The notes below the pieces were generated by a model. The model was not told where the DNA came from. It saw only the letters and a list, made by a program, of their open reading frames with translations, and did not search any database. Shown here piece after piece: positions 5,942 to 63,372 of a stretch of DNA of 64,000 bases. The DNA is from Sisyra terminalis (taxonomy: Eukaryota; Arthropoda; Insecta; Neuroptera; Sisyridae), in the NCBI GenBank assembly GCA_958496175.1, contig OY292275.1, forward strand, positions 63,813,701-63,877,700, given 5' to 3'. The first letter of the stretch is position 1, and each line of letters opens with the position of its first letter. The position numbers were made by a program, and so were the translations under genes.

Positions 5942-5984
5942 TCTCAACGTTTCGTTGGTATTTATTTCCAACTTCTTCAGGAGA
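5942..5984 (-). ncRNA. Hammerhead ribozyme-like motif (family C)
   Basis: On the minus strand the order is: 5' strand of stem I (TCTC), core CTGAAGA, an extra A, stem II GTTGG / CCAAC closed by a 9-nt loop, core GAA, then A15.1-C-G-U16.1 as a one-pair stem III, candidate cleavage nucleotide U17, and GAGA completing a 4-bp stem I. All invariant core positions are present. Only one copy of this sequence version is visible here, and unlike most others it has no inverted partner. Family knowledge: minimal hammerheads with reduced stem III occur in Penelope-like retroelements. Self-cleavage is inferred. Confidence 0.65.
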
Positions 5985-6000
5985 ACTAAAACATAATAAC

Positions 6001-7318
6001 AATGCATGTTGTTCAAAGCCAAATTACAATTTCTAACAGTATTTTTCTGGTATCTAAGTACAGGTACTACCCAGCTTATGAATGAAAAATTCGAAAAGCT
6101 TCACATAAGACTTATTTTTAAAGATATTGTACACTTCTAGAGTTTTGGTGGCAATATAATTTGTAAGACCTTTACCGATATTACATTAAAATGTAATATT
6201 CAACATATTTTATTTAGTGAAAACCAAATTTTTAAGCTCTAAAAAAATTGCACAACCCAACTTGCGCTTGAATTTACTAGTCGAAAAAAATCCCTATTGT
6301 CTCATAATTATAATTGTTATTCGACGACAATAGCAAAAGCTTGGCAAGCTTTAAGCACTATGGTATATATGTATATCACAAAATAATATTCTTTGGCTAC
6401 CTTAATTATAACAGTGAGCCGCTTACGTTGTTCCACAAGAAATTTTGTTATTAAGTCAACGACATAAAGGGCGTGCGGCATAAATCGAGCGAGGAAAACC
6501 TAGGGGTAGTTTGAGGGCGAATATAATTACAATTTTCATTCATTTGGCTAGCACTGAACACCACTACTAACACAAAAAAAAAACATTCTTCACTGTTTTT
6601 CCTAACGAAACCATATTTCAAAAGACTAAACTTGTTGAAGCCTCAAAAAAAAAAAAAACAGTAAAGAACTTATCACAAAACTTTTTCAATTTTAACGAAG
6701 CTTTTGAGCTTTTTTGCTCTCGTTGTTAATTTAAATTATTCACAAAACACGGGAAATTAAAATCAATGTCATTGAGAAAATATATATTCATATAAAATCA
6801 ATTGCATTCAACAATTACGATAAAGAAGTGAGAAAATGGGGAAAATTAAAACGGGAAAATGTTCGCTTTTCTTGTTTCAATTTAATTCGGTTGATAAAAA
6901 CAGACGCTTTATATGTGGATACTTATTGCTTTCGAATGCGTTTGAAAACTTGAATTGAATTTATGGTGGTGGCGGGCGACCCGCAAAGATGCCTTCCAGG
7001 CATCCCCGTGAAAGGGGGGGGTGGAATAACACGAGGAAAATTTCAAGTTTTGGTCAACAAAATTTCAATGTGGTTTCTCAGCTATGCCACAATCTTATCT
7101 TTCCCCATTCTGAATGGGTATGATTTGAAAATGTCTTTGAAACTTTGAGTTTCGGCAAACAAAAACGGAAAACGTTTGGTTCAATTTGATAATATTTGTT
7201 TTAAAATTTGTAATATTTCAGTTTAAATCTTAGCAGATTTTATATATTAAGAATATTGTTTAAAAATAAATCATAAACTTTATTATATTGTGAGTAATCA
7301 GCATAGATTACAAATATA
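6001..7318. other. Non-coding stretch, nothing recognised
   Basis: AT-rich sequence with poly-A/T runs. A small GC-richer patch at about 6965-7025 includes a G run. No exon, RNA gene or repeat end was recognised. Confidence 0.4.
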
Positions 7319-7377
7319 TTAGACTGATGCAAAAATAATGATGATTTTTTTTCTCTTAATTATATCGAAAATATACG
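7319..7377 (+). repeat. Left-end fragment of fold-back family 1
   Basis: Begins TAGACTGATGCAAAAATAAT and continues with the family's subterminal phrase TAATTATATCGAAAATAT, then stops abruptly where the direct repeat at 7378 begins. About 60 bp of one terminus survive. Confidence 0.7.
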
Positions 7378-7924
7378 TTTGCATAACTCTATCAAAAGTT
7401 TCAAATTTGTGCAGTAAAATGTTACATTTATCTAAAAAATATGTCAATTACTAAATTATGAGAAAAAATAAAGCACTAGTTTCGATTACAAAAGCTCAAT
7501 GGGTCGTTGTGATCAGCTTTGTGGTAAATAATATACTTCCTTAGAATTGCAACTTTTCGTTTAAAGTTCTATTTAAAATTTCAGCATTGGTAGTAATTTG
7601 GTTTGAAATATTAGCAATTTTCCACTTCTCGAACATTTGTATTCAACTTTGGACCAAAATTATTTCGTAAAATGGAAGAAAACATCTAAAAATTTGATCA
7701 GAAATTAAAGTATATAATGTTTACATTGGTCATAAGGATATTACCTGTTTTACATATTTCTAAATCACAATAATTTGTTTGGAACTTCATTTTACTGAAT
7801 AAAAGTGCAATACTGCTTTCTTCTATGATTTTTTTGTTTAAAATGAAAATTATTTAGTTAATTTAAATAATTTCCAACTTCAGTATGACGCTTAAAATAC
7901 TAATCTTATTTTGTAATTGAGCAA
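7378..7924 (+). repeat. Dispersed direct repeat, copy 1 (about 550 bp)
   Basis: Nearly identical to 9374-9921, about 2.0 kb downstream in the same orientation. In this copy the longest shared reading frame is interrupted by a stop (CCTTAG where the other copy has CCTTGG). The unit borders a family 1 fragment on its left. It is not recognised as a known element. Confidence 0.8.
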
Positions 7925-9373
7925 TATAATAATATATGTAATAGAGTAATATTACATATGCAAGCGATAATTTTTTTCTTTTAGAGCTTTCGAGGGAAAA
8001 AAAACATCAATTAATGGCGCAAAAAAAAACTTCTATTATTTGAAAAAAAGCTCGAAACATTAACTTAGCACTATAACAGGTTTTTCTGGAAAAATGTGAG
8101 CAACAATTTTTGTTATTCCCTAAATTTCTTGAACAACAAAAAAACTCCAAAATATTTCATAGTTGTATTTTATATATTCCAAAAGGATATTGTTAAGTTG
8201 ATGGACGTGCAAATTATTGACAATGGAATACCATGATATGGAAAACCATCATCGCATATTTGGTAATAATGCTTGAATTATAAAGTTGAATCAGTAGATT
8301 TTGTCCTACAAATTAAAGAAAATAATATAGTATGAAATTTATCACTCTTTTGAAGTGAACTAATTACTTTATACTTGTAATTGGAATCCAAAGAAATTTA
8401 GAAAATCTGGGATTTCATTGATTGTAAGAGATTTTCAATCCCAAAATTCTTCTCCGTGAGAATTTAGACCAAATCGATCCAATATTGTATACGGTAATGC
8501 CAATCTTAAATTGTACAAACATATTTTTCCCATAATAATTTTATTGATAATTGCGCATTGATATCTTCCAACTATTCATAAATAGCTCTTGAAAACTTCC
8601 ATATTTTCTCAAATTATTGAAATTTATCAATAGATTTTTATCTTAGACTCTTCTAGATTATTATTCTGCAAACATAAAACAGTTAAACATTTTTCCTTTT
8701 AAGTAACTAATTTTGTGGATAACTTGTAAACCTTTTAAAATTCACGAATTCAGACGAAGTCTCGTGCATTTGTATACTGATTTGTATATAAAATAAGTTT
8801 TTCGAGCTTATATTCTACGAGGCCATGGAAAAGCTGATGGTACAGGGACAATTTGAAGGGAAAATAAAACGAGTAATAAAAATCACTGATCAGTTGGACT
8901 GAAGTGGTGGAAAAGCTCGTTGTCTCGAGCTTTGCGTCCGTAGTACGTCAAGCAAAAGAACATAAATGTTAGGGAAGGACTGTCCAGCAGGTCCTGAAAA
9001 ATTTCGAATTCCCTGAATGACAACCATTTAATCGCCAAACATTGGCAGCGATTTTTGGATTGAGGAAGAAAAGATATAAAAATAATGGATTCTTGCACAA
9101 ATTACTAAAGCACAGTATTCCATTTCCTTAAATAAACCGAAATTATTACAATTATAGATAAGGATTGTAAATATTTTGCTTAAATATTTCCTTAGAAAAT
9201 GCCCTTTTACTTTGGTTAATAATAGCTTTATATAGTGCTTTAAATCCGTAAATTTTCGTTGAATGTTCTATCCATTAACAGTTATTATTGTATTTGAATA
9301 CATGAATCAAAAATTAGAAGCTTTCACGTTCTATTTCTGCAGTTTTCTTAGGGATTAAGTCGTTCTTGAAATA
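7925..9373. other. Spacer between two direct repeats
   Basis: AT-rich sequence separating the copies of the 550-bp repeat. The segment near 7980-8190 loosely resembles phrases in the palindrome at 31247-32055. No gene was recognised. Confidence 0.35.
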
Positions 9374-15342: not shown

Positions 15343-15915
15343 CAATATTTTCGATATGATTAAAAGTTATTTAATTAAAATAACAAAATAATTTTTATGT
15401 TAAAAATATAATATTATAATTCAGGGAATTTTCAGTTTAATGCAAATAATTTAGGACCTGTGAAAAATATCAAAAACTTTCATAGAGATAAGTTATAGAA
15501 CAAAAAGTGCTCTACAAAAAATGTGCTATCAAATTTTCTCATAAAATTGATGGTTGTGTTAAAAAATTGAAAAAATATTAAAATTTCTCTTTAGTTCAAT
15601 TTTGATCTCGAATAACTTTTGAAGGAATAAATATATTAAAAACTTGTACGACACCTTTTTTGTAGATCGTTTAATTTTCTACAAGAATATATCTTGATCA
15701 TTCCGAAATATTGTCACCAACGTGAGCTATAAAATTCCAAAGTGCAAGAGAATATTGTTTCCATGTTATTTGAAATGGAAAATCGAAATTTGCGATGCGG
15801 CACCTCTTAATATTAAGAGCTTAAACTTTCGCAGGATTTTTTTTTGTCATTCCCAACAATATTTTCGATATAATTACGAAAAAAAAATGATCATTTTTTT
15901 TTTGGAATCAGTCTA
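15343..15915. mobile_element. Fold-back MITE, family 1, internally deleted copy
   Basis: Keeps the centre and the whole right arm of the element and ends in GGAATCAGTCTA. The left arm is reduced to a short terminal phrase (AATATTTTCGATATGAT), so most of it is deleted. No target duplication can be read on the left. Confidence 0.75.
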
Positions 15916-23007: not shown

Positions 23008-23350
23008 TCTTTACTAATATATAACATTCTTACGTCTGTCTGTACATTTCGATTTTGAACCCAATTTTAGGGTAAATATTTGTTTTTTATTCCAAATTTA
23101 ACATTTTTAAAATTTTTGTCTGTCTGTCTGTCTGTTTGTTTGTCCTGATTTAACTAAGGAATGGAACAACCAAATTTAATGAAATTTGGTATTAAGATAC
23201 AACACAATTTCCCACAGACTATAGGCTACTTATCATTCCAAAAAAAAAATAAGGGAAGCCATTCCTGAGGGATGAAAACATAAATTTTTACACTAGATAG
23301 ATGAATTATATATCATTGGAAAGGTAATTTAAAGTTAGAAAATAATCTGT
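23008..23350 (+). mobile_element. Helitron 5' fragment
   Basis: Starts TCTTTACTAATATATAACAT after an A, then has ACGTCTGTCTGT and a CTGT-rich run. Much of its sequence matches the internal part of the larger Helitrons and the fragment at 36335. It is cut off at 23350, where an arm of a fold-back family 1 element begins. Confidence 0.65.
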
Positions 23351-23770
23351 AAAAAAGTGCTCTACAAAAAATGTCCTATAAAATTTTCTCATAAAATTGA
23401 TGGTTGCGTCAAAAAATTGAAAAAACATTAAAATTTGTGTTTAGTTCAACTTTGACCTCGAATAACTTTTGAAGGAATAAATATATCAAAAACTTTTACG
23501 ACACCTTTTTTGTAGATCGTTCAATTTTCTAGAAGAATATACCCTGGTCATACCGAAATATTGTCACCAACGTGAGCTATAAAATTCCAAAGTGCCAGAG
23601 AATATTGTTCCCATGTTATTTGAAATGGAAAATCGAAATTTGCGATGCGGCACCTCTTAATACTTAATATTAAGAGCTGAAACTTTCACAGGATTTTTTT
23701 TGTTATTCCCAACAATTTTTTCGATATAATTAAGAAAAAAAAATTCATCATTTTTTTTTGAATCAGTCTA
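23351..23770 (+). mobile_element. Fold-back MITE, family 1, right arm only
   Basis: Begins inside the arm at AAAAGTGCTCTACAAAAAAT and runs to the terminal GAATCAGTCTA. The left arm is missing and is replaced by a Helitron fragment, making a chimeric junction. Confidence 0.75.
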
Positions 23771-25945: not shown

Positions 25946-26506
25946 TTAAACCGTGCCGGAATCATGTTACTTTTACCTTTTAAATAACATGGGATTATTT
26001 GACTTTTTACCAATTAATTTTTTTCTTTAGAAACAAATGAAAGAAAAGATTTAAGATCAAATTATTCTGACGTAAAATTTAACGCTCTACAAAAAAGATC
26101 TCTTATGAATTTTCGATTAAATCACTCCATTAAAAGTTATTCAACATTTAACTTTTTAACGACAAATCAATCGATTATAGGCTAAATAAAAAGGATGTTG
26201 ACTACAATTTCAAGATTGCTCATAGATGGCGTCAGGTGAAATAGTAAAAATTTGTCGATAGTCTCATTAATTAGTATGGAAATTCACTTCGTAGGTACAA
26301 AATATTGATTAAAGTACGAAAACTTATTCTGGATAATCAAAATAAGATTTTTTCGCTGACTATGAACAGTTATACAGTGTATACAATATATAGAATACAT
26401 TGCCGTCCAATTTATGTAGTATAATCTGATATAATAATAATATATAAAAATCACACCATAAACATAAATTTAAACAGAAGTTCAAACAAAAATATTCGTG
26501 ACGTAT

Positions 26507-26553
26507 TGCCCAGATACGTATTTCGATTGCCAAGCAATCTTCCTCAGTGGTCA
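26507..26553 (-). ncRNA. Hammerhead ribozyme-like motif (family B), minus copy
   Basis: Minus strand: stem I 5' strand ACCA; CTGAGGA; extra A; stem II GATTGC-TTG-GCAATC (6 bp, 3-nt loop); GAA; stem III ATA-CG-TAT (3 bp); cleavage nucleotide C17; then TGG. Stem I pairs CCA/TGG, has one mismatch, then two more pairs. Every invariant core base is intact. The inverted partner is at 26627-26673. Confidence 0.75.
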
Positions 26554-26626
26554 GCAAGTAGTTTGGAGATCACTCCGTAACTGCTTTGTGATGATTCATG
26601 TGAAAAGAGTGATCCAAACTACTTGA

Positions 26627-26673
26627 TGACCACTGAGGAAGATTGCTTGGCAATCGAAATACGTATCTGGGCA
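26627..26673 (+). ncRNA. Hammerhead ribozyme-like motif (family B), plus copy
   Basis: C3-A9 is CTGAGGA at 26633-26639, followed by an extra A. Stem II is 26641-26646 with 26650-26655. G12-A14 is 26656-26658. Stem III ATA/TAT (26659-26661 with 26664-26666) encloses CG. C17 is 26667. Stem I pairs 26630-26632 with 26668-26670, then after a mismatch 26627-26628 with 26672-26673. All three helices and all core bases are present, making this one of the best hammerhead candidates in the window. Confidence 0.78.
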
Positions 26674-27360
26674 ATACGTCACGAATATTTTTGTTTGAAC
26701 TTGTGTTCAAATTTATATTTTTGGTATGATTTTTATATATTATTATATCAGATTGTACTACATAAATTGAACCGCAATATATTCTATATATTGTATACAC
26801 AGTTATCCTGGATAAATTGAATTTCACGACTATAGCGAATTCGAAACTTATATCACTTGTTTTAATTGTCAAAAAATTATTGTTTTTTGTTTAATTTTCA
26901 GTTCAAGCCATAAAATTAACACAAATAATCACTGGCGCTCTTATGATAAAAATTTTTATCTTCTCTCCCAATGATTTTATAGTTACAAATAGTAAAAATG
27001 GGCAAAAAGTTGAGAATATCAGGCACACGTTAAATATTGAATAACTTTTAATGGAGTGATTTAATCGAAAATTCATAAGAGCCCTTTTTTGTAGAGCCTT
27101 AAATTTTACGTCGGAATAGTTTGACCTTAAATCTTTTGATTCATTTGTTTCTGAGAAAAAAAAATTAAATGGTAAAAAATCAAATAATCCTATGTTATAT
27201 AAATAGTAAAAGTAACATGATTCCGGCACGGTTTAATCAAGAAATTAAGAGCTTAGTTGTATTGGATAATTTTTTTTATATCTTAAACTAAAAATTCAGG
27301 GGGGGGGCGATCGCTGTAGAAAAATCAATTTGGAAAATAACGGACACCCTAATGTTGCAA

Positions 27361-30209: not shown

Positions 30210-31154
30210 AAGACTAATTAAAAAACAATTATGATTTTTTTTCTTAATTATATCGAATATCGCAAATTTCGATTTTCATTTAAATAACATGGGAAAAATG
30301 TTCTCTTGCACTTAAGAATTTTATAGCTCACGTTGGTGACAATATTACGGAATGACCAACCAACGTATATTCTTGTAGAAAATTGAACGATCTACAAAAA
30401 AAATCTCGTACAAATTTTTGATATATTTATTCCTTCAAAAGTTATTCGAGGTCAAAGTTGAACTCAAGAGAAATTTTAATATTTTTTCAATTTTTTGACG
30501 CAACCATCAATTTTATGAGAAAATTTTATAGGACTTTTTTTGCGGAGTACTTTTTTTTCTATAACTTATCTCTATAAAAGTTTTTGATATTTTTCACAGG
30601 TCTTAAGTTATTTAATTAAAATAAAAAAAATAATTTTTATGTTAAAAATATAATAATTCAGGGAATTTTCAGTTTAATGCAAATAACTTAGGACCTGTGA
30701 AAAATATCAAAAACTTTTACAGAGATAAGTTATAGAACAAAAAGTGCTCTATAAAAAATGTCCCACAAAATTTTCTCATTAAATTAATGGTTGCGCCAAA
30801 AAATTGAAAAAATATTAAAATTCCCTTTAGTTCAACTTTGACCTCGAATAACTTTTGAAGGAATAAATATATTAAAAACTTGTAAGAGATCTTTTTTGTA
30901 GATCGTTCAATTTTCTACAAGAATATACCTTGGTCATTCCGAAATATTGTCACCAACGTGAGCTATAAGATTCCAAAGTGCAAGAGAATATTGTTCCCAT
31001 ATTATTTAAATGGAAAATCGAAATTTGCAATGCGGCACCACTTATTATTAATATTAAGAGCTTAAACTCTCACAGGATTATTTTTTGTAATTACCAACAG
31101 TATTTTCGATATAATTAAAAAAAAAATAATTCAACATTTTTTTGAATCAGTCTA
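30210..31154. mobile_element. Fold-back MITE, family 1, complete copy
   Basis: Both arms and the centre are present. The left end is slightly altered (TAAGACTAATT) and the right end is GAATCAGTCTA. It is embedded between TA repeats, so a target duplication cannot be read. Non-coding. Confidence 0.82.
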
Positions 31155-31155
31155 C

Positions 31156-31242: not shown

Positions 31243-31646
31243 GTTCAAGTTTTAAAACAATGATTTTGGGAAAAAGTTTAATTTTTTATTCTCCTTCAAG
31301 TTGGCACTAAATTTTTGGAACTTGAAAAAAATAGCTATGAATGTAAATATTTTGGAATTTTTTGCAACTTAAGAGTTTTGGAAAAAGAAATTGTTGCTTG
31401 CAATTTTTCCAAGAAAACTCTTTGATGTGCTAAATTGACGTTATATATATATAGAAAATATATATAGAAAAGAAGCAGAAGAAGGAAAATATGTAAGCAA
31501 CAATTTCTTTTTCCAGAACTCTTAAATGATAAAAAATACCATTTTCCATAAAAGATGATAAAATGCAGATCTCAGCTTTTATATTTTTTTAAATAAGAAG
31601 ACAATTCAGGTTATTTAAGATCTTTTAATATTTTTATTATTAAATT

Positions 31647-31683
31647 ATCTACGTTTCGTTACGTATTGTAACTTCTTCAGGCT
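31647..31683 (-). ncRNA. Hammerhead ribozyme-like motif (family A), minus copy
   Basis: CTGAAGA, extra A, stem II GTTAC-AATAC-GTAAC, GAA, A-CG-U one-pair stem III, A17. Stem I is weakened: position 1.2 is A opposite G, where the sister copy has a C-G pair. The core is intact. Confidence 0.6.
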
Positions 31684-31808
31684 TCTCTAACAAATTAAAA
31701 TAATTACAAAATATGTCAATCTTACATAAATTTTTTATTTAATATTTTTATTATACATAAATTTATGTATGTTCGACATATTTTGTAATTATTTTTATTT
31801 GTTAGAGA

Positions 31809-31845
31809 AGCCTGAAGAAGTTACAATACGTAACGAAACGTAGCT
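31809..31845 (+). ncRNA. Hammerhead ribozyme-like motif (family A), plus copy
   Basis: CTGAAGA at 31812-31818, extra A, stem II 31820-31824 with 31830-31834, GAA 31835-31837, one-pair stem III A31838-U31841 around CG, candidate cleavage base A31842. Stem I AGC/GCT has 3 bp. The core is complete. The very short stem III resembles small hammerhead variants described from Penelope-like elements, which are thought to act as dimers. Confidence 0.68.
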
Positions 31846-32055
31846 AATTGAATAATGAAAATATTAAATAAAAAATTAGAAAACAAAAATTTCTTAAATA
31901 ATCTGAATTGTTTTCTTATTTAAAAAAAAAAAAGATAAAAAATTCCAAAATATTTTATAGCTATTTTTTTCAAGTTCCAAAAATTTAGTGCCAACTTGAT
32001 GGAGAATAAAAAATTAAACTTTCTTCAAAAATCATTGTTTAAAAACTCGAATTGG

Positions 32056-33259: not shown

Positions 33260-33776
33260 GTAAGTTTGAGCTTTTTGTCATTTAATTTTCATGTTACTTA
33301 CTTTTAAAGACAAGAATTTTTATTCTTTGGATTCGCGCGCATTTCCCTGCTATTTGTCTAATGGAATTTTCCCCCGTTTTTCTTTACTACAGCAATTTTC
33401 ATTATCGTAATCCACACACTCGCGTGTTGTCATCACGTTGGCTGGGAAGTGAGGGGATGAATTTAAAAAGTAAAAAAAAAAGGTGCTACAAGATATTCAA
33501 TGTTGTAACGAGGAAAATCTCGCATTTCTTACAAATTTACATATATTGAAATAATAATGATAAATAAAAGATAAATAAAATTCTTATGAATAATTCAGAG
33601 AATTTTGCGTTCAAGTTTCACACTGATATTTTTTTTTCGTATGCAATTATTGTAACAGAAAATAACTACGGAATCATTAAAAAAACTCCTTTAAATATTT
33701 ATATTTCCCTAAATAAGAAAACAATTCAGGTTTTTTAAGATCGTTTTTTTTTATTTAATATTTTTACAATTTAATT

Positions 33777-33813
33777 AGTTACGTTTCGTTACGTATTGTA
33801 ACTTCATCAGGCT
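33777..33813 (-). ncRNA. Hammerhead ribozyme-like motif (family A), minus copy
   Basis: CTGATGA (the classical core), extra A, stem II GTTAC-AATAC-GTAAC, GAA, A-CG-U, A17. Stem I position 1.1 is A opposite C and so unpaired; the next two pairs hold. Core intact, stem I weakened. Confidence 0.6.
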
Positions 33814-33874
33814 TCTTGATTCACAAAAATAAAAAATTTTCCCATTGAAAATATTTTATTTTTGTGAATCAAGA

Positions 33875-33911
33875 AACTTGATGAAGTTACAATACATAAC
33901 GAAACGTAGCT
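33875..33911 (+). ncRNA. Decayed hammerhead-like motif (family A), plus copy
   Basis: The invariant C3 is changed to T (TTGATGA), stem I has a mismatch, and stem II is reduced to GTTA/TAAC. It is probably inactive. It is the partner of the better-kept motif at 33777-33813. Confidence 0.5.
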
Positions 33912-34149
33912 AATTGAATAGCAAGAATATTAAATAAAAAAACCGATCTTAAACAACCTCAATTTTTTTACAGAAACACTTAAATTTTTATCCCTTATTA
34001 AATCGAGTTCTTGTTTTATAGTTTTTCACCCCTTCACACCCCATTTGTAAAGAGTTTAAAGAGGTAAGCCTCAGAAAAAGCAAAAACCTCTTCCGATAGA
34101 CTTTAATTCCGAAAAATTTTGCCATTTTATTTCCAAAACACAAAAAATT

Positions 34150-35720: not shown

Positions 35721-36334
35721 GTTTTTAATCTCACTTATTTTTACTTCCACAAGTGTACTACAAATATAAATTGTACCAAACTTTTCAAGATAAATATTTT
35801 TCAAGCAAAAATGCTTCGAGTTTATCGTTAAGTTTTTGCGAATGTCTCACAGTCATCGTTAATTAACGAAACCACGCTGAAATTATATCATCTTGAAAAA
35901 AGTGAAGCTTTCGCGAAATATTCGCGAGAAATTGAAACGAAATAAATGAAATTAAATTGTGTGTATTTTGTGAAACGTTTGCGCTATGTTTGCAATAATT
36001 AATTAATATTTCTTTTTGACAGACAATGTCAAATTAAATTGAAATTTCAAACAACATTCGTTCGGTTTTGTATACTTATTTTGATTCGTTTAATTTCCAC
36101 TTTTTCCAAACTTACTGAACTCTAAAATTTCGTTAATAATTTAGTCTGCTCATTGTCATTGTATTTATTTTATCACGTTGAACGTTTTATTTGGGATAAC
36201 TAAACTTTTCGGGGTATAACTTTGTAAAATAGAATATTTGAATTTTTGTTCATCAATTAGGTTTGAGTCTTTGCTAAAAGTATTTAATTAAGATAGTAAA
36301 CTATGAAATTGAACTATTTTAAGGGAAATGTAAA
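35721..36334. other. Non-coding intron DNA
   Basis: AT-rich stretch between repeat block A and the Helitron fragment. Nothing was recognised. Confidence 0.4.
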
Positions 36335-36975: not shown

Positions 36976-37375
36976 GAATAGCGAGAAATTTGGCAAACTG
37001 AAAGAAAATGGTTTAATTATATAGTTTGGGTTTAGTTTTATATTTTGGAGTTAAAGTCTATCGCGGGAGCTTTTACTCTTTCTGAGACTTACCCCCTTAA
37101 AAATGGAATAGTAAGGGGTGGAAATTTGTAAAGCAAGCCACAAAATAAAGGGCAAACAGTAGAGAATTATTCTCAAATTTATATTACAATATAAGTATGG
37201 ACGAATTTTTTGTCTTTGGGGTACCACTGGTTATTTACCAGTTAACAAGAAAATGTTTATGCTTTAATTCAAGTTTAAAATTGGTGTAAATCCCCGATTT
37301 TTTGATTCCTCAAAATCTACCTGAAACAGTTAACGAAAATTTTAGGTAATTCAATGTTTTCAACCACGAATTGTG

Positions 37376-38330: not shown

Positions 38331-38332
38331 TG

Positions 38333-38735
38333 TAAGAATTTTTTTTGTAGGAAATGTTCTTAACTTTCATTTTAATACCAACCATTTAATTTTTTTCCTC
38401 GTGGCTTAGAAATTATAATGAAAAAAAATTTTTTTTTTTTTTTTGGAAAATCAGTAAGGTGAAGGAAATGGCGTCCTATATCAACGAATTTTTTGGTTTT
38501 AAGACCCTATCTTTTAACTTTTAAACGTACTTTTTATTGTATTAAAAAAAGCTCTTTTTATATTTCGTTAATATAGGGCGCCATATCCTTCACCTTACTG
38601 ATTTTTCAAAAAAAAAAAGAAGGTTTTTTTCATTATAACTTCTAAACCATGAGGAAAAAAATAAAATGGTTGTTATTAAAATGAAAGTTAAGAACATTTC
38701 CTACAAAAAAAAATCTTATAAAAATTCTTGGCTTC
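38333..38735. repeat. Palindrome at the end of repeat block B
   Basis: Inverted repeat with arms of about 180 bp. The left arm has GTAGGAAATGTTCTTAACTT and GTGAAGGAAATGGCGTCCTA, and the right arm has their complements. The centre is near 38535. Single-arm versions occur at 35630-35720 and 37780-37930. Confidence 0.8.
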
Positions 38736-39009
38736 AATATTTAACGACTTTTCTTATCAATCATTACATAATTATTAATTTGGAATTTGTGTGAAATTAT
38801 TCAAATCCTATTAAACTCAATTCACGACTGAATTGAATTCGCACTGACAGATTGAAATGATAGATAGACCGACATTCGACAATTGTATCCAATAATCAAT
38901 AGACAAATGTTTGCTTGAAGCAAAAAATTGAACTTTTTCGAACTATACATTCATTGAAATCTCCCAGAGGAATTTAAAGAGTTAACTTTTTTTACGGTTC
39001 TTGTTTCAG

Positions 39010-39241
39010 ATATTCGACGATTTCATCTTTGCATTTTTTTCGCTAGAAATGACGATTAAAATGGTGGCAATGGGGGTGTACGGCAAAGGAACATATCTGG
39101 CCGATTCGTGGAATCGACTGGACTTCTTCATTGTCCTGTCGGGAGCGCTGGAGTATTGCCTGAACGTCGAAAATATGAATTTGTCTGCAATACGAACAAT
39201 ACGTGTTCTACGTCCATTGCGTGCGATTAATCGCATTCCAA
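39010..39241 (+). CDS. Ca-alpha1T: T-type calcium channel alpha-1, exon with domain I S2-S4
   Basis: 77 codons plus one base. [20 protein letters not shown] is S2, with the acidic and basic residues of the gating-charge transfer centre. [18 protein letters not shown] is S3. [20 protein letters not shown] is the S4 voltage sensor with arginines at three-residue spacing. Acceptor TTGTTTCAG at 39001-39009, donor GTAAGA at 39242, phase 1. It joins in frame to the previous exon (…KILQ|IFDD…) and to the next (A|GT = Ser). The S4 sequence with LRPLRAINR is typical of Cav3. No frameshift or stop. Confidence 0.96.
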
Positions 39242-39633
39242 GTAAGAATTTTTCTCATTTTTCTCATTTTTCTTTTGTGGTTTTGTCAAAATTTCAACAT
39301 TTTATTCCAACATCGATAAACAAAACACGAAATAATTCTCCCAACTGCAGAGAAGTTAATATTTGTGTTATATTCATCTCGCATTTATCTCATCTCATCC
39401 CCCCTGCCCCGTGCTATCATATCTCGAGCGTTTCACGCTCGATCTTTTCATTCGTGCTAATTCTACGAATAGAACTCTGTTTGTTTAACAAAAGACTGTA
39501 TAATTAACAATTAATTAACGCAAATAATATAGGGCCTCGTGCTATTTCATACAAAACGATCAACTCTTCTTCACTATGCGGCAAACTTGATTATCTCTTT
39601 CAAGCCGTGTGGCTCTCCTCCGAATATTATTGT

Positions 39634-39661
39634 GCGGAGCTTTGAAAGCTCAAAGCTCCGC
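39634..39661. repeat. Perfect 12-bp-arm hairpin
   Basis: GCGGAGCTTTGA, 4-nt loop AAGC, then the exact complement. It is the strongest member of the AAAGCTC/GAGCTTT mini-hairpin set and lies about 390 bp after an exon donor, inside the intron. Confidence 0.85.
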
Positions 39662-40499
39662 ACCGTAACTGCAATTCAATGAAATGTCGAACGTCGAGAA
39701 AAAGCCGAGACGACTGGATATTATTTTATAGGTCAACTGTTGGAGATTGGCGAATTTGGGTTAATATCGTGGGCTCTTGACGAAATTAAGATGCCTCGTT
39801 TCGGGAATAATTCAATTGTTTTTTATGAGGACGCCAACGTTGCGTTAATGAGATTACCGTGGACACGAAAGGGGCATTACCGGGGCTACTTTTGTTTCAA
39901 ATATAAAAGACACGTCTTCACGGGGTTTCTTAAAAAATTGGCGGGAAATCAGAATTTGCACGTTTTTTTTCGCATCTTTTATTTGAAATTTGTTTCATGC
40001 TGTGTTTTTTAATGCGCTTTGGCCTATTTGTTTCTTCAAATCATTGAATTACTTGAAGCTTTCGAACCAAAAGTTTTGCAACCTGTTCGGGTCGCATTTT
40101 CAGGGGGCGTAATAGTTCCGAAACTAGTTTCAAGATGCTCTTCAAGTCGTCTTGGTGGTCAGAGTAATGAAAATGTTGAAGGACAGGAGGTCAATCAATA
40201 CGGGGCAGGATAATCCTTTGCGTTATAGTTGAAAAGCTTTTCAACTAAAAATAACAGGAAAATCATCTTTCTGGTTCGAAACCACAATCCCTGTAGATGT
40301 TATTGGGATTCTTGTCGTCCTCTATTTTTTTTCGGAGCTTTTTCTTGAATAAGTCAGAAAAAAAAAAGTTAATTTCGGTTGTCAAATTGCAATTTCCAGT
40401 AGCCAAATAGTCACAGTTGAGGGGTAATTTGACCAAACTTTACTTATGTCCAATGTTCTTTGAGTTCTATACCCGTGAAACTTCCCATTTTACCAACAT

Positions 40500-42352
40500 A
40501 CGACATATGACTCGTTTATTTTGAAAGTGGCGTAAAACCATTTCAAGGACGTGATTGTTGTAACTAGAACAAAGTATGTTAATTATTTAACTGCTAAGTT
40601 TTCAGAAATTACGTTGTTAACAAAAACGCCAATTATTCCCTACTCCTCCTTAATATCTTTCATAGTTCCTATGACTAAAAATGATAACACTATTAGGGAT
40701 TGTTCTTGAAATGGACTTAACCCACTTTCAAAATAAGCGGTTCAATTATAATTCCAATCAAGTGCAAATTATTCATCAACTATATTTGCTTTCCTGTTGG
40801 TTTTTTTTCATTTTATTTATTTTAAGTTCCATTATTTCGTGTAAAAGTGCCACTTTTAACACAATTCTAAGACTTTTAAATGGTCATTCCCTGACAAATT
40901 TATTTATTAAGGGAAGGAATTTATAAGGGATGATGTCATCTTAATTTTTTAATTTATAATTTCTACGAAAGATTTAGTTGTTTTCTATAAAAAATTTTCA
41001 TAAACAGTATTAATGACAAACTATGACAGCATGGTGAGGGATACTATAAGGTAAATAACGATCATTTCTGGGTCTAACTTTGCCGGCATCATGCAAATAT
41101 CCACCTGTTTTCTGGTAATATATGACTCGTTTATTTTGAGAGTAGTGTAAGTCCATTTCAAGGACGGTCTATATGGTGATTATTCTTCTTGTAACTAGAA
41201 CAGTATGTTAATTATTTAACGGTTAAGTTTTCAGAAATTACTGATTTCATTTAAGTTGTTAACAAAAACGTCAATTATTCCCTCCTCCTTAGTATCTTTC
41301 ATAGTTCCTATGATTAAAAATTATAACACTATAGGGATTGTTCTTGAAATGGACTTAACCCACTTTCAAAATAAGCGGTTCAATTATAATTCCAATCAAG
41401 TGCAAATTATTCATCAACTATATTTGCTTTCCTGTTGGTTTTTTTTCATTTTATTTATTTTAAGTTCCATTATTTCGTGTAAAAGTGCCACTTTTAACAC
41501 AATTCTAAGAATTCTAAGACTTTTCAATAATCATCCCTTGACAAATGATTATTTAGTAAGGAAAGGGATTTCTAAGGGATGATGTCATCTTAATTTTCTA
41601 CCAATTTTCGGTTGATACATAATTTTTGAGAAGTATTTACAGTAGTTTTCTATAAATTTTTTTAACAAACAGTATTGATGAGTAAATATGACAGCATGGT
41701 GAGGGAACTAAATGATAAATATTGCTCTTTTCTGTGCATATTCTTGTCAATATCATGCAAATATCCACCTGTTTTCTTGCAAAATATAATTCCAATCAAG
41801 TGCATTTTTTTCATCAACTTTCTCACTCGTTTTTTTCCATATTACTTATTTTAAGTTCCATTATTTCGGGTAAAAGTGCCCACTTTATCCACGAAATTCA
41901 CCAGGAAATTACTGCAAATTTACCAGTGAAAATCCTCTATTAAATCAATTTGCTGAGTTCTAAGATTTTTTTAATGGTCATCCCCTGACAAATGATTACT
42001 TAGTAAGGGAAAAGATCTAATAAGGCATGATGTCACCTCAATTTTCTACCAATTTTCGGTTGATACATACTTTCTGAGAAAAATTTAGTAGTTTTCTATG
42101 AAAATTTTTTACAAATAATATTGATGACAATATATGACAGCATGGTGAGGGATACCATAAGGTAAATAACGATAATTTCTGTGTTAAACTTTGCTGACAT
42201 CATGCAAATATCCACCTGTTTTCTAGTAATATATGACTCGTTTATTTTGAAAGTGGCGTAAGTCCATTGTAATTCTTCTTCTTATAACTAGACCAAAATA
42301 TGTTAATTATTTAACTGTTCAGTTTTCACAAATTACTGATTTCATTTTGTTG
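40500..42352 (+). repeat. Rearranged repeat complex, block C
   Basis: Units open with TATGACTCGTTTATTTTGA at about 40506, 41120 and 42232. Between them lie modules seen in block A in reverse orientation: TTATTTTAAGTTCCATTATT, GGGATGATGTCATCTTAATT, CAGCATGGTGAGGGA, and ATGCAAATATCCACCTGTTT. A stretch of about 200 bp is repeated almost exactly at 40690-40900 and 41340-41520. Non-coding. Confidence 0.78.
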
Positions 42353-49288: not shown

Positions 49289-49749
49289 ATCAATATAGAG
49301 TAATTGTATACCCCATGATGGAAAATATAATTATTAAATCACAAATCCACTACTTACTAACTAATACTCGGAACTTCATTTATATGGCACACAATTAAAT
49401 AACCAATATTTGCTCGTTAATGTGTCGGATATTCGAATTTATTCCAATACCTTGGATACTTCAACCAGTTAGCGGGAAGGGAGGAATGTTCTTAAGATTC
49501 GTTAATTTTTTTTTTAAAATCAATACTTTTAGAAAATTAATGAGTGAGACAAAGACTGAATATGTTGTCAATTTGACAAAATTATCAACTTTTGACCCAG
49601 AATTTAAATAAAAACTTACAATTTTGAGCAATTATACTGTGTATACAATATATAGAATATATTGCGCTACAATTTATGTAGTATAATTTAATACAATAAT
49701 ACATAAACATAAATTTGACCAGAAGTTCAAACAAAAATATTCATGACGT

Positions 49750-49798
49750 ATTGCTTAGATACGTATTACGATTGCCAAGCAATCTTCCTCCGTAGTTT
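49750..49798 (-). ncRNA. Decayed hammerhead-like motif (family B), minus copy
   Basis: Stem II GATTGC-TTG-GCAATC and stem III are kept, but two invariant core bases are changed: U4 to G (CGGAGGA) and A13 to U (GTA). It is probably inactive. It is the partner of the intact motif at 50011-50057. Confidence 0.5.
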
Positions 49799-50010
49799 GG
49801 ATTACTTCATAACTACTTTGTGATGATTCACAAAATAATCACGGATTGACCTAAATTTACAAGTCATGGCTTTCTCTTTTTTGGCGAAGTGGTTATGGAG
49901 AGGGGTGGGGTGGGGGTTTTCCCAAATTTCCTTACTTTCACCGAACACTTGAATTATGATTCACATGAATTATCACAAAGCACTTACGGAGTGATTTCCA
50001 AACTACTTGA

Positions 50011-50057
50011 TGACCACTGAGGAAGATTGCTTGGCAATCGAAATACGTATCTGGGCA
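50011..50057 (+). ncRNA. Hammerhead ribozyme-like motif (family B), plus copy
   Basis: Identical through the core and helices to 26627-26673: CTGAGGA (50017-50023), extra A, 6-bp stem II with TTG loop, GAA, ATA-CG-TAT stem III, C17 at 50051, and TGG pairing with CCA in stem I. Identity over the whole motif between two insertions 23 kb apart, while the left-arm partner here has drifted, may reflect recent origin or selection before insertion. Confidence 0.78.
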
Positions 50058-50301
50058 ATACGTCACGAATATTTTTGAACTTTTGTTCAAATTTATGTTT
50101 ATTATATTAAATTATACTACATAAATTGGACCGCAATATATTCTATATATTGTATACACAGAAAAACTTATACTTTTTGATATTTTTATTATTTATGACC
50201 AGTGATTCGAAACTTTTGATCAAATTGTTTCGATTTACAATCTTGAACGTTAGCTTAGAAAAGATATTTCAAATTTGTTCAGCAACTGTTTTTATTTGGT
50301 T

Positions 50302-51340: not shown

Positions 51341-52070
51341 TAAAGGACATAGGTCATTTGGTTTATAATTTCAGGGTATTTTGGTTCTATTGCGATACAT
51401 TAATTCGGCAATTTTCAGATTCCTATGTATTACCATTTCTTCACGAATCGAAAAAAACTGGAAATCATAAAAAAAAAATTTTCTCAGAAACTTGTGAATC
51501 GATTTATTTGAATTTTGGATATGTTATAGGGGCTGATGGTAGCTTCTAGAAAAAAAATTAAGAGCTTTATCGATTGATAAGATCCTTGAAAAAAGAGAGC
51601 TTTTTCGTTTAATTTTTAACCATGATACAATTTTGGTACAACTACAAAACTATGTTTTTCGAATTCCCCATCCAATTTCCTTTAAAATCTTTTAAATTTT
51701 AAAAAACGCATAACTTTAAAGAAAATTGTATGGGGAATTCGAAACAAATAGTTTTGTAATTGTACCAAAATCGTATCATGGTTAAAAATTAAAATTATAA
51801 GAAAAAGCTCTCTTTTGTTAAGGATCTTATAAACCGATAAAGCTCTTATTATTTTTTCTAAAAGCTACCATCAGTCACTAAAACATATTCAAAATTCAAA
51901 TAAATCGATGACAAGTTTCTGAAATTTTTTTTTTCTGATTTCCAGCTTTTTTCGATTTTTAAAGAAACGGTAACACATAGCAATCTGAAGCTTGCTGAAT
52001 TAATGTATCTTAATAGTACCAACATACTCTGAAAATATGAACCAAATCCTCCTGATTTATTTAAGCTCAA
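51341..52070. repeat. Palindromic repeat P, complete
   Basis: About 730 bp with arms of about 350 bp and a centre near 51700 (TTTTAAATTTTAAAA). Left-arm phrases such as AATCGATTTATTTGAATTTT reappear inverted in the right arm. Part of the left arm recurs at 18290-18535. Termini and any target duplication are unclear. Non-coding. Confidence 0.75.
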
Positions 52071-52118: not shown

Positions 52119-53090
52119 TAGACTGATTCAAAAAATCATGATTTTTTTTACCTTAATTAAATCGAAAATATTGTTGGGAATGACAAAAAAAATCCTGTGA
52201 AAGTTTAAGCACTTAATATTAAGTATTAAGAGGTGCCACATCGCAAATTTCGATTTTCCATTTAAATAACATGGGAACAATTTTCTCTGGCACTTTGGAA
52301 TTTTATAGCTCACGTTGGTGACAATATTTCGAAATGATCAAGGTATATTCTTGTAGAAAATTGAACGATCTACAAAAAAGTCTAGTACAAGTTTTTGATA
52401 TATTTATTCGTTCAAAAGTTATTCGAGGTCAAAGTTGAACTAAAGAGAAATTATAATATTTTTTCAATTTTTTGACGCAACCATCAATTTTATCAGAAAA
52501 TTTTATAGAACATTTTTTGTAGAGCACTTTTTTTCCTATACCTTATCTCTATAAAAGTTTTTGATATTTTTCACAGCTCCTAAGTTATTTAATTAAAATA
52601 AAAAAAAAAAAAAAATTTGTAAAAAATATAATAATTCAGGGAGTTTTCAATTTAATGCAAATAACTTAGGACCTGTGAAAAATATCAAAAACTTTTATAG
52701 AGATAAATTATAGAAAAAAAGGGCTCTACAAAAAATGTCCTATAAAATTTTCTCATAAAATTGATGATTGCGTCAAAAAATTGAAAAAAAATATTAAATT
52801 TTCTCTTTAGTTCAGCTTTGACCTCGAATAACTTTTGAAGGAATAAATATATCAAAAACTTGTTCGAGACCTTTTTTGTAGATCATTTAATTTTCTACAA
52901 GAATATATCTTGGTTATTCCGAAATATTGTCATTAACGTGAGCTATAAAATTCCAAAGTGCTAGAGGATATTGTTGCCATGTTATTTAAATAGAAAATCG
53001 AAATTTGCGATGCGCCATATCTTAATATTAATATTAAGAGCTTAAACTTTCCCAGAATTTTTTTCTGTCAATTTTTTTTGAATCAGTCTA
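52119..53090. mobile_element. Fold-back MITE, family 1, complete copy
   Basis: 972 bp, ends TAGACTGATTC / GAATCAGTCTA, flanked by ATCTACAT (52111-52118) and ATCTATAT (53091-53098), again a 7-of-8 match for an 8-bp target duplication. Two long arms and a short AT-rich centre near 52600. No transposase. Confidence 0.88.
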
Positions 53091-53971: not shown

Positions 53972-54674
53972 GGGTGGATCACCGTCAGAACGTAAAAAAA
54001 ATGACTTTTTTAAAACTGCTGCAATTTTTTTTATTTTGGAGATATTAAAAAACGGTCTTCGGCATGTAAAAGTTGAAGATTTGAACTATTTTTTTTTATT
54101 TGCCCCGATATGTACCCTCCACCCTCCCCCTTTAACAGCGCTTTGAAATAGGGTCCTCAAAAATGAGGAGGCAAACGGAAGACAAGTTTTCTCGGAAACC
54201 AGAAGTCGGATCATGATTTTCCAAAGAATTTAGGTTTTGGTATTGCGTCTTCTTGGTACTGAACCTCGAAAATTCAAAAAAAGTTGAAAATTCACAAAAT
54301 GGCGTGACTTTGAAAATAAAGTTAAAAAAACGACCTTTTTATGGACCTTTCCCCCTCTCCCACTTTGAGGAAAGGGGGGGGAGGTTGGCCAATTTCAGAG
54401 GTTCAGTACCAAGAAGACGTGTTGAACTATAACACTCTCCAGTTTCAAGTCAATCCGTCGGATAGTTTCTGAGAAATCTTGTCTCCCAGTTTTAAAAAGT
54501 TGATTTCGAGAAAAACGCATTTAAAGTTTTTTTAAGATATTTTTTTATGTTATTATCAATTTATTCAATTTTTATCAGTGAAAATATTCAGTGAAAACAC
54601 GTTATTCTTGAATGTTATAAGAAGACATTTATAGAAAAAAAAATCGATTTTTTTTTTCTGACGGTGATCCACCC
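53972..54674. mobile_element. piggyBac-like MITE, copy 2
   Basis: 703 bp, same 19-bp inverted ends as copy 1 and TTAA on both sides (53968-53971, 54675-54678). Internal sequence matches copy 1 in reverse. Both copies have the TACCAAGAAGACG phrase and its complement, so the element is itself partly palindromic. Confidence 0.88.
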
Positions 54675-54731
54675 TTAAATAAGAAGACAATTCAGGTTGT
54701 TTAAGTCGGTTTTTTTATTTAATATGTTTAC

Positions 54732-55542
54732 TAGGGTGATTTTTTTTTTGACTTTTTTTGGTCCCATCGTGAAATTTTGTTGGAAATACCAAAAAAAAAA
54801 ATCCCTGAAAGTTTGAGCCCTTAATATTAATTTTAAGTCGTCGACCAAGACGTGTAAAGATTTCCCATTGAAAATACACGGAAACTCTGATTTTTTATTT
54901 TTAAATTTCTATATCTCAGCGGCATTTCATGGGATCGCTTTTACCGACGATGGTTTTTTTTTTTCAGAATTAAACGCTCTACAAAAGTGCCCATTGTGAC
55001 AAAGTCGTAACTCACACCGGGGAGGTAGTACGGGCCACTGAACCTGATTTTTCCATAAAATTCGTGTTTTTTTTTTTTTGCATTTATCTCGTAAATAACA
55101 AGAGCTACAGAAAAATTATAAATAAAAACTTGTAGAGAATTTGATTTCCTACAAAAAAGTTCCTGTAGACCAAATCGCGAAGATCAATATTAAACGAGAT
55201 ATTAAGCCTTGAATTTTATGGAAAAATCAGGTTCAGTGACCCGTGCTACCTGACCGGTGTGAGTTACGACTTTGTCGCAATGGGCACTTTTGTAGAGCGT
55301 TTAATTCTGAGAGAAAACCATCTTCGGTAAAAGCGATCCCATGAAATGCCACTGAGATATAGAAATTTAAAAATAAAAAATCAGAGTTTCCGTGTAGTTT
55401 CAATGGGAAATTTTGACACGTCTTGGTCGAGGACTTAAAATTAATATTAACGGCTCAAACTTTCAGAGAATGTTTTTTTTGGTATTTCCAACAAAATTTC
55501 ACGATGGGACCAAAAAAAAAAAGTAAAAAAAAAATCACCCTA
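54732..55542. mobile_element. Fold-back MITE, family 2 (hAT-type)
   Basis: 811-bp palindrome with ends TAGGGTGATTTTTTTTTT / AAAAAAAAAATCACCCTA and a perfect 8-bp target duplication ATGTTTAC (54724-54731 and 55543-55550). The end sequence TAGGG and 8-bp duplication fit the hAT superfamily. Subterminal phrases AGCCCTTAATATTAATTTTA and AAACGCTCTACAAAAG echo families 1 and 3. Non-coding. Confidence 0.88.
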
Positions 55543-55559
55543 ATGTTTACTATTCAATT

Positions 55560-55596
55560 AGCTACGTTTCGTTACGTATTGTAACTTCCTCAGGCT
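55560..55596 (-). ncRNA. Hammerhead ribozyme-like motif (family A)
   Basis: CTGAGGA, extra A, stem II GTTAC-AATAC-GTAAC, GAA, A-CG-U, A17, and a 3-bp stem I AGC/GCT. All core positions are intact. The variable position N7 is G here, against A at 31812 and T at 63339, as expected for the one free position of the core. Confidence 0.68.
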
Positions 55597-55660
55597 TCTT
55601 GATTCATAAAAATATAATATTTTCAATTTAAATTCTAATAAAAGCTTCATAATAAAAGCT

Positions 55661-61552: not shown

Positions 61553-62247
61553 TAAACGAGAATCATATACGAAACATTTTCAATTATCTCAACGAATAAT
61601 TTGCAAACAGATGAGAGAACGTTTGAAACAATTTCGAAACTCGTACTTGAAACATTTAATTGAGTCCCGGATTGAAAATCAGATTATGTCCCCCCCTCCC
61701 CCATCCTGTAACTCCCTTGTTTCTATAGTCCATACAGTGGCGGCGGCCGCATTCCCAAACATCAACAGGAATATCGGGTAGTGAAAAGAAAATGGTAGCC
61801 AAGCGGGGTTTTTGATGTTTTACAATAATTTGAATATGGGTAAATGCATGAAGGGGGATGATGGAGGTTAGGCGGTGGGGTGGAATGAGGGAATCAATTT
61901 TGCAATTTCTCGTTTTACAATTTGTGCGGCAATTGGCGCAGGTATTTGCAAGCATATTTGCAATCATTTGATTTTCAAAACATGGCACACGCCATGTAAT
62001 CATATTATATAAATGTATACCGAAATTGCATTACGGAAATGAAGAACGAATTGTACATATCCTGTCCGAAATGCAAATTTGTGCAGTTTGTGCACAATTG
62101 TCTGTCTGTCTCTCTGTCGGTCTTGATTAACGGGCATTATTTAATGAGTTTGCAAGTTCGACTAATAGATGTGGGGGTGGGTTGGGGTGGTAGTGGGTGT
62201 TTGGAGCGCCTTGATTAATGCGATGTGTTCAAATGCAATTTTTGCAG
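61553..62247. other. Intron DNA before the turret exon
   Basis: Contains C-rich and G-rich patches (61690-61705, 62170-62200) and a CTGTCTGTCTCTCTGTC run at about 62100. Ends with the acceptor TTTGCAG. Confidence 0.45.
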
Positions 62248-62527
62248 TGATCTTTCGCGTTATTACACGTTTTCGCAAGAGCAGGAGTACATATGCACGC
62301 GGGGCGACAACTCGGGAATGCATCAGTGCGGCAATTTGCCGCCGTATCGCCACGGCGAAATGACTTGCAACGGAACGGCAATTCCGGGAAGTGCTAACGA
62401 ACCCACGAACACGTCCTGCGTTAATTGGAACCAGTACTATACGGAATGTGTGGGAAACGGGGACAACCCGTTCCAGGGAACCATCAGTTTCGATAATATC
62501 GGATTGGCTTGGGTCGCAATATTTTTG
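62248..62527 (+). CDS. Ca-alpha1T: T-type calcium channel alpha-1, exon with domain I turret and pore helix
   Basis: One base completes a Pro codon, then 93 codons. DLSRYYTFSQEQEYICTRGD begins the extracellular turret, which has five cysteines (in YICT, HQCG, MTCN, TSCV and TECV) and two N-glycosylation sequons (NGT, NTS). VNWNQYYTECVG and FDNIGLAWVAIFL lead into the pore helix; the NWNQYYT…NPF and FDNIG motifs are shared with vertebrate Cav3. Donor GTGAGT at 62528, phase 0. The exon is conspicuously richer in G+C than the surrounding intron. No stop or frameshift. Confidence 0.96.
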
Positions 62528-62585
62528 GTGAGTAAAATTCGCGAGGAAAAATTTCCAAGAAAATCATTTTTCCGGTTGTTTCCAG
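62528..62585 (+). other. Very short intron (58 bp, phase 0)
   Basis: GTGAGT…TTTCCAG between the pore-helix exon and the selectivity-filter exon. The reading frame happens to stay open through it, but read-through would insert residues into the most conserved part of the pore. Confidence 0.92.
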
Positions 62586-62678
62586 GTTATTTCTTTGGAA
62601 GGATGGACCGATATAATGTACTACGTTCAAGATGCACACAGCTTTTGGGATTGGATTTATTTTGTTCTCTTAATTGTG
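62586..62678 (+). CDS. Ca-alpha1T: T-type calcium channel alpha-1, exon with domain I selectivity filter
   Basis: 31 codons. [20 protein letters not shown] contains LEGW, whose glutamate is the domain I contribution to the Cav3 EEDD selectivity filter. [11 protein letters not shown] is the start of S6. Acceptor GTTTCCAG ends at 62585, donor GTGAGT at 62679, phase 0. The rest of S6 and the I-II loop lie beyond the window. The glutamate and the following GW are intact, so the visible part has no sign of pseudogenisation. Confidence 0.96.
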
Positions 62679-63335
62679 GTGAGTAGATCCCAATTTTCCC
62701 AATTTCCGCTCTCGCAAAAATTCAAATCAATTTTCAGTGAAAAGCTTTGAGAGACTTGAAAGCCCTGAAAGCTTCGTTTTTTTTTTTGTAGAAAATTTGA
62801 AAAGAATTCAATAGCACGTAGCAAAGCTCGGCGAGATTCAAAAGCTTGATTGATGCACTGAATTGAACTGACCAACAAATGTAGCAAAGTTCACGGTGAC
62901 GTTGCTGATTTTCTCGCACTCAATTACAGTGCAAAAACCACCCCCCACCCCAATTTCATCCCTTCTTTTCGTAATATTCTCATATGCACCATAATCGTAT
63001 CAGGCGTCATATACACAAACTGGGAATGTAATTGCCAGATTCAATATCGCACCCGAGAAATGTATGACTCGCAAAAGCTTCATGAATTATTCAAAGCTCA
63101 TTCAAGACAAATATCATTTCAGATTATTGCGTTATTTGGTGCTTAACGTATTTAACTAACTTTTGTAATTTCTGCAATTATTATTATATAACCGGCAAAG
63201 TGAAGAGCTTTAAACGACATTTATTAAAAGCTCTCTTGTCGTAACTTTGTTTCACAACTCTTACACCAAATTTTTTTTCTCCAATAAATAAAATTAAATC
63301 ACTCAAATAAGTTTAAGATTTTTTGGGAATCAAGA

Positions 63336-63372
63336 AGCCTGATGAAGTTACCATACATAACGAAACGTAGCT
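63336..63372 (+). ncRNA. Hammerhead ribozyme-like motif (family A), single
   Basis: CTGATGA at 63339-63345, extra A, stem II GTTA/TAAC (4 bp; the fifth pair is lost as C·A), GAA 63362-63364, A-CG-U, A17 at 63369, stem I AGC/GCT 3 bp. The phrase after it (ATTTAATAAAAAACCGATCT) is the normal family A flank, and the leading flank TTGGGAATCAAGAAG is also typical. No inverted partner nearby. Confidence 0.65.

Follow-up and report, generated by a model that had tools for sequence, protein, structure and literature searches.

We analysed a stretch of 64,000 nucleotides from the neuropteran Sisyra terminalis (contig OY292275.1; G000:C2:63813701-63877700), hereafter called the window, which has about 30% G+C and belongs to a genome of 376.6 Mb in 11 contigs. 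An earlier note on this DNA had placed eleven hammerhead-ribozyme-like sites in it, and a check of the letters confirmed the hammerhead layout at all eleven, each at the place and on the strand that the note had given. These sites are very probably minimal type I hammerheads in the 3' ends (pseudo-long terminal repeats, pseudo-LTRs) of Penelope-like elements (PLEs), inserted as head-to-head foldbacks.

The CUGANGA...GAA core is intact at nine of the eleven sites; the note had counted a changed core base at three, and such changes do exist, but at two sites only. In family B, hammerhead B1 (26507..26553, minus strand) combines stem I CCA/TGG, stem II GATTGC/GCAATC, stem III ATACGTAT and C17, and its core is identical to those of B2 (26627..26673, plus strand) and the intact B4 (50011..50057, plus strand), while B3 (49750..49798, minus strand) carries U4->G and A13->U with a stem I of 2 bp and is, judging from its core, probably inactive. 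In family A, A2 (31809..31845, plus strand) has stem I AGC/GCT, stem II GTTAC/GTAAC, stem III ACGT and A17. Its relatives A1 (31647..31683, minus strand; stem I reduced to 1 bp, with GAT for GCT) and A3 (33777..33813, minus strand; stem I broken to 0 bp, with ACT for GCT) have intact cores, as do A5 (55560-55596, minus strand) and A6 (63336-63372, plus strand; 4-bp stem II), and A4 (33875..33911, plus strand), with C3->U and a 1-bp stem I, is again predicted to be probably inactive. The single family-C hammerhead, C1 (5942..5984, minus strand), shows stem I TCTC/GAGA, stem II GTTGG/CCAAC, stem III ACGT and U17, and its core recurs in locus L045. Over all eleven sites, six have a stem II of the GTTAC/GTAAC type (4-5 bp), four have GATTGC/GCAATC (6 bp) and one has GTTGG/CCAAC (5 bp); stem III is ACGT at seven sites and ATACGTAT at four, both self-complementary; and every site carries A, C or U at position 17, none of them G.

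Under a strict definition (intact core, stem II of at least 4 bp, U16.1 and a 3-bp stem I), the window holds seven sites, against a mean of 0.01 and a maximum of 1 in 100 dinucleotide shuffles; with one core mismatch allowed, the numbers are seven and 0.13. In the whole genome, the generic pattern CTGANGAAGNNNNN{4,10}CGAAACGT has 6,436 matches (3,142 + 3,294), against one for the reversed control, and the exact 35-nt family-B core occurs in 2,754 copies (1,383 + 1,371), against none for the reversed pattern. From 100 listed matches to the generic pattern we took 60 loci, which cover 89 of the 100 places, and added 11 close family-B pairs, one locus near endonuclease matches, two with long frames, and L203-L206. 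Among the 100 matches listed, 29 neighbours lie less than 3 kb apart, and 27 of these are in minus/plus order, with one plus/minus and one plus/plus. A minus/plus pair consists of two arms whose 5' ends face each other and whose 3' ends point outward; the elements are foldbacks of two 5'-truncated PLE 3' ends, often with target duplications.

The window contains four such foldbacks, in which an arm is called long when it includes an extra PLE "tail" of about 30-40 nt. The family-B remnant at 26336..26801 has a left arm (26336-26547, minus strand) with the long tail, a short right arm (26633-26801, plus strand) and an 8-bp repeat, CTGGATAA, at each end. The family-A remnant at 31553..31928 likewise has a long left and a short right arm, with no clear target duplication, and the one at 33718..33969 reaches the long score in neither arm. 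The second family-B remnant (49623..50160) was scored short/short and has a 9-bp repeat, AAAAACTTA, at each end; judging from the letters, its left arm ends about 20 nt inside the tail. Hammerhead A6 lies in a single plus-strand family-A arm with a long tail (63320..63470), and A5 in a minus-strand family-A arm (55541..55627) that is cut about 55 nt past the core start by an insertion of about 800 bp, its remainder lying at 54673-54731. The insertion itself (54732-55540) has inverted arms (54740-54957 and 55314-55531) that are 93% identical. By the arm coordinates, the ribozyme core starts about 100-175 nt ahead of the short end, and the copies in the window are 5'-truncated products.

The link to PLE coding sequence comes from longer copies elsewhere in the genome. 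In the family-B foldback L206, the left arm contains a 696-amino-acid reverse transcriptase (RT)-endonuclease frame with an RVT_1 match (36.5 bits against a cut-off of 29.6) and, after it, a GIY-YIG stretch, and the right arm a 210-amino-acid endonuclease end whose GIY-YIG score of 18.3 bits is below the cut-off of 22.6; in both arms the stop codon lies 23 nt ahead of the ribozyme core. The ends of L206 are unequal, one being long and the other short, and its repeat, TTCAAAAGATGAT, measures 13 nt. With the codons read by eye, the 5' flank of B1 in the window encodes NHHKAVTE-stop, the end of the L206 frame, and that of B3 reads RSIRDYFVNHHKVVMK-stop against RSIRDYFVNHHKAVTE-stop in L206, with 13 of 16 residues equal. 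For family A, locus L069 combines an RT frame (RVT_1, 35.4 bits) with an endonuclease frame behind it, and the ribozyme follows after about 370 nt. The L034 foldback, whose flanking repeat contains TATAAGTTAACA, has a 151-amino-acid endonuclease frame about 430 nt before its right ribozyme, and endonuclease pieces are also carried by L013, L063 and L023. The single family-D locus L070 has a C-terminal RT piece in an RT-endonuclease frame with a GIY-YIG match of 24.7 bits (cut-off 22.6), and a ribozyme about 395 nt on. The endonuclease frames of family A, that of L034 included, gave no Pfam match when taken alone; they share 41% of their residues with L070 across a stretch of about 200.

The L034 frame has at least 150 scored matches in the genome, and a tblastn search with the PLE frames marked 8 of 75 loci; in the window it gave no match at E<=1e-5, the family-B remnants there being too short. 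Relatives of the PLE proteins were found mostly in wasps (Microplitis, Cotesia and Polistes) and also in the butterfly Melitaea, the nearest relative of one of them being from Microplitis mediator (67%), and the L069 RT frame had no relative among sequences of solved structures. No strong link to coding sequence was seen for families C, E, F and G, with a weak one at L037 (stem II GTCGG; 29%), and among the loci examined family C (5942-5984) showed no coding sequence joined to its ribozyme. The assignment to PLEs, which the earlier note had offered as inference, therefore holds for families B (L206) and A (L069 and L034), and for D from one locus (L070), while for family C it is unproven. L082 was rejected as a first coding link for family B, its foldback (1900-2355) being a separate insertion that is adjacent to an endonuclease foldback (339-749 with 1141-1551) and forms no part of it. 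L205 resembles L082, and in L204 the foldback lies inside another PLE copy, so that neither was retained; L204 and L082 are nested insertions, with family-B foldbacks in or beside other PLE copies.

For 59 pairs (32 of family A, 14 of B, 9 of D and 4 of E) we scored the ends by the tail-specific stretch in both arms; the set includes the four window pairs and some partial arms, and families F and G, which have no reference arm, are outside it. In 49 of the 59 pairs one end is long and the other short (P 1.4e-7 against 50%), and the remainder comprises three unclear/short, five short/short and two long/long pairs. The short ends cluster per family, and L203 and L206, outside the 59, also have one long and one short end by their letters. 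Of the 59 pairs, 31 are flanked by exact repeats of at least 9 bp, a feature shared by 1.9% of 3,422 mismatched end pairs; the repeat length varies between elements. The PLE literature consulted, which left most subscription papers out of reach, yielded no count of one-long/one-short ends.

A second clue is the family-A foldback L023, whose left arm, extending into endonuclease sequence, belongs to one subfamily and whose right arm belongs to another, with at least four linked differences, both arms lying inside a perfect 12-bp repeat, CTACTTACTACT. Holding the two arms together lowered the log-likelihood by 21.8 (p-AU 0.03), in a case that was chosen after the data had been seen. A weaker mosaic candidate is L041. 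Because of the one-long/one-short ends and the mixed-subfamily arms of L023, the data favour two separate reverse-transcription starts over self-priming of a hairpin. The PLE enzyme would cut both target strands roughly 8-14 bp apart, and each freed 3' end would prime reverse transcription on element RNA, with one outer (long) and one inner (short) start. The two cDNAs, with template RNAs usually coming from one source, would meet, join at self-complementary sites and be filled in, to give a palindrome with its 3' ends outward.

Hairpin self-priming, in which one cDNA folds back and copies itself, is in our view unlikely, although it has been proposed before: a 2013 study suggested it for PLEs of rotifers, with an antisense template in that case, according to the portions available to us (PMC3846280). 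It predicts equal ends, whereas 49 of 59 pairs are unequal with short ends clustered per family, and it would not put arms of different subfamilies into one element, as in L023. Several observations nevertheless weigh against two separate starts. The centres of many pairs are symmetric, with at least 25 inverted pairs out of 30 at a loop of up to 60 in 36 of the 59, as self-priming also predicts. Partner arms are usually near kin, with a mean identity of 0.957 in family A against 0.906 for other arms (29 pairs), and 47 of 50 pairs have the same base at N7 in both arms; the template for the two arms was thus usually a single RNA or a set of sister RNAs. An exact repeat of at least 9 bp is absent from 28 of the 59 pairs, and the two-template reading draws on the unequal ends, one mosaic (L023) and the weaker L041, while gene conversion after insertion could be another source of a mosaic. 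Moreover, the family-B palindromes L071 and L072 share a common centre (97.5%, in opposite orientation) between different flanks, so that a palindrome may at times be copied whole; this pair is the one such case among 56 inner segments. L027 and L203 were considered as a further case and rejected, since their spacing is equal but their centres and flanks differ. As a separate observation, C at N7 is rare in family A: of 10 exact C-form copies, four lie in these two foldbacks.

Starting from two separate starts, one may go further and suppose that the palindromic stem III joins PLE RNAs in twos as a dimeric genome, so that a single insertion complex would contain both templates, one per cut strand, a suggestion to which we give only a slim chance. 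If it were true, the one-long/one-short ends and the mixed-subfamily arms would be the footprint of an asymmetric RNA dimer. Given the common long/short pairing and a mosaic enclosed by perfect target repeats, self-priming and two-template insertion can be tested directly against each other, and the mirror-image copies hold clear clues to the mode of PLE insertion.

The palindromes might instead be DNA transposons with terminal inverted repeats (miniature inverted-repeat transposable elements, MITEs) that carry hammerheads by chance. The inverted-repeat layout, the target duplications and the occurrence of one palindrome centre at two places (L071 and L072) would suit this, but the arms continue into PLE coding sequence, and the linked RT-endonuclease frames exclude it for families A and B. 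The ends are also unequal and the repeat length is not fixed, although no search aimed at transposases was made. Overall, we consider such an origin very improbable.

That the motif forms a structured RNA, as the earlier note had proposed, is borne out by its copy number and by covariation. We aligned 18 distinct cores with MAFFT and compared them with 500 shuffles. In stems I and II, 95.1% of the cells are paired, against 64.7% in the shuffles, and 45 cells are changed on both sides, against 11.8; there are 20 further pair types against 13.9, and the covariation score is 0.847 against 0.198. None of the 500 shuffles was as high on any of these four measures, while a fifth and coarser measure, the number of pairs showing a double change, was not significant (6 against 4.8; 125 of 500). 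When the structure was shifted by 1-3 columns, pairing fell to 21-55%. The core and ACGU are invariant in the 18 cores, yet most of these were found with patterns that demand them. The versions of stem II among the 100 matches listed include GTTAC, GGTCT, GTCAG, GTCTC, GTCGG, GCAAT and GGAAT, and the complement is nearly always present. The covariation across copies that the note had described is thus found in stems I and II, and it supports a structured hammerhead motif.

It is hard to credit, in contrast, that the sites are a DNA motif that merely resembles a hammerhead and has no RNA function: stems I and II change in a compensatory manner across the families while the core is constant. In favour of that idea, single-strand folding is little above shuffles (z -0.12 to -2.13 for five sequences), and the Rfam hammerhead models gave no match, at E<=1 on the window and at E<=10 on L017, L071 and L024. 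The earlier note had counted the lack of covariance-model hits among the results that would speak against its motif, and taken to the letter this result does so; a match to Rfam is, however, a criterion for detecting hammerheads and not one that defines them. Model R1, which we built from 18 cores and which is partly circular in that some of its training rows come from the window, detects seven of the eleven window sites at E<=1.4e-8 and 43.3-60.6 bits (A1 at E 6.9e-11, A2 at E 7.4e-13). It misses the four family-B sites, in which stem III is longer. Annotation that relies on Rfam can overlook loop-less hammerheads even when they are present in very many copies. Two microRNA matches from Rfam (33786-33902 and 51653-51746) were dismissed, as they fall under the gathering score and lie on foldback DNA. 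A scan of viral contigs matched at least 120 stretches; among 80 of them (L083-L162), four matches have a 4-bp stem II and none of these four a 3-bp stem I, and R1 scored at most 23.2 bits on 30 viral stretches, against 43.3-60.6 bits for the seven window sites. These were therefore rejected as chance matches.

Stem III, in examples from five families, is self-complementary as ACGU, AUACGUAU or ACGCGU. ACGU has no space for a hairpin loop, so that the A15.1-U16.1 pair should need two molecules; the RNA would then cleave after position 17 mainly as a dimer, and AUACGUAU could close alone only as a weak 2-bp stem. The account in the earlier note contained neither this limit on a one-molecule stem III nor the head-to-head pairing in foldbacks. 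Cleavage itself is a prediction from sequence, and the computed dimer energies are mixed: the double-hammerhead fold beats two monomer optima for families B and G, but is weaker than two free monomers for families A, E and F, and it is the predicted optimum in none of five dimers. Furthermore, a head-to-head copy cannot form a double hammerhead in cis because one of its two ribozymes is antisense in any transcript, and cleavage should depend on source loci or on trans pairing. A tandem arrangement was seen in one of the 29 close neighbours among the matches listed, and possible tandem source loci were not looked for. In part of family D, stem III is ACGUGU, self-complementary only through central G.U pairs; the family-D relatives L030, L031, L039, L043, L045 and L060 show either ACGU followed by C or ACGUGU followed by C, and these variants are reported as a step between the loop-less and the 2-nt-loop forms of stem III. 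Decayed copies such as L020, L039 and L042 deviate from the minimal self-complementary stem III. A different ribozyme family (stem II GGCAGTT, stem III ACGCGU) occurs at L017:1718-1855, where it has a foldback of its own, 265 bp long, next to one of family A.

Retrozymes are small, non-autonomous elements in direct repeat that produce circular RNA by means of their hammerheads. They would account for thousands of mostly non-coding copies, but with 27 of 29 close neighbours head-to-head among the matches listed and with PLE coding sequence in the long copies, this explanation can practically be set aside.

Tandem-transcript processing is one proposed role for PLE hammerheads. Lunse, Weinberg and Breaker (RNA Biol 2017) and Cervera and de la Pena (MBE 2014) reportedly described small PLE hammerheads that cleave as dimers. 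The sites studied here share with such small dimeric hammerheads the type I core, the minimal palindromic stem III, the PLE association and copy numbers that reach thousands in some genomes, as far as the consulted portions of two reports describe them (PMC7761336, PMC6466107); they differ in that families A, C, E and F have ACGU without any loop. The copies here are head-to-head, whereas the part of PMC6466107 available to us states that a tandem arrangement is needed for a double hammerhead in eukaryotes. Hammerhead-bearing PLEs are thus a kind already known, and the useful part lies in the measured regularities of insertion, drawn from thousands of insertions in several families in one genome. 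Both the role of the hammerhead in PLEs and the origin of head-to-head copies are posed as questions in the sections consulted (PMC7761336, PMC3846280).

Poseidon of Anolis carolinensis (PAc) is a hammerhead-bearing PLE of the GIY-YIG type. Its RT starts at two sites, and the stretch between them is a "tail" that the extra stretch of our long ends resembles; both target strands are cut and extended at AT-rich DNA (PMC11167929). PAc loci are described as tandem, and the ribozyme there sits where the reading frame begins, whereas the elements here are head-to-head with the ribozyme 3' of the frame; and a difference in start site between the two strands was not seen in PAc, whereas most scored insertions here have one of each (PMC11167929). 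In vitro, the Anolis element could still insert when its ribozyme was mutated, and the ribozyme cleaved only with the PLE protein (PMC11167929), findings that also weigh against our account of the sites. The Penelope elements of Adineta vaga come close in architecture: in the accessible part of the report, their pseudo-LTRs are inverted, head-to-head, with a 31-bp tail on one, duplications of 8-10 bp and palindromic junctions (PMC3846280). The same text never uses the word hammerhead, and its authors preferred self-priming (PMC3846280).

The surroundings of these elements hold further features. An Ion_trans exon lies at 38986-39504 (6.6e-17), and because it is in the same window, introns of that ion-channel gene are the probable location of the elements. 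A second open frame (62219-62683) gave no Pfam match, and both stretches look like a T-type calcium channel. At 4592-5334, beside a family-A tail (5482-5539), there is a second kind of repeat, a foldback with arms of about 350 bp at 90% in which no hammerhead was seen, and related copies lie near 15410-15852, 23260-23702, 30242-31088 and 52224-53068. Finally, 34149-42313 is occupied by a cluster of direct and inverted repeats (ATGACTCGTTTATTTTGAAAGTGG...), with arms of up to 453 bp at 92%.

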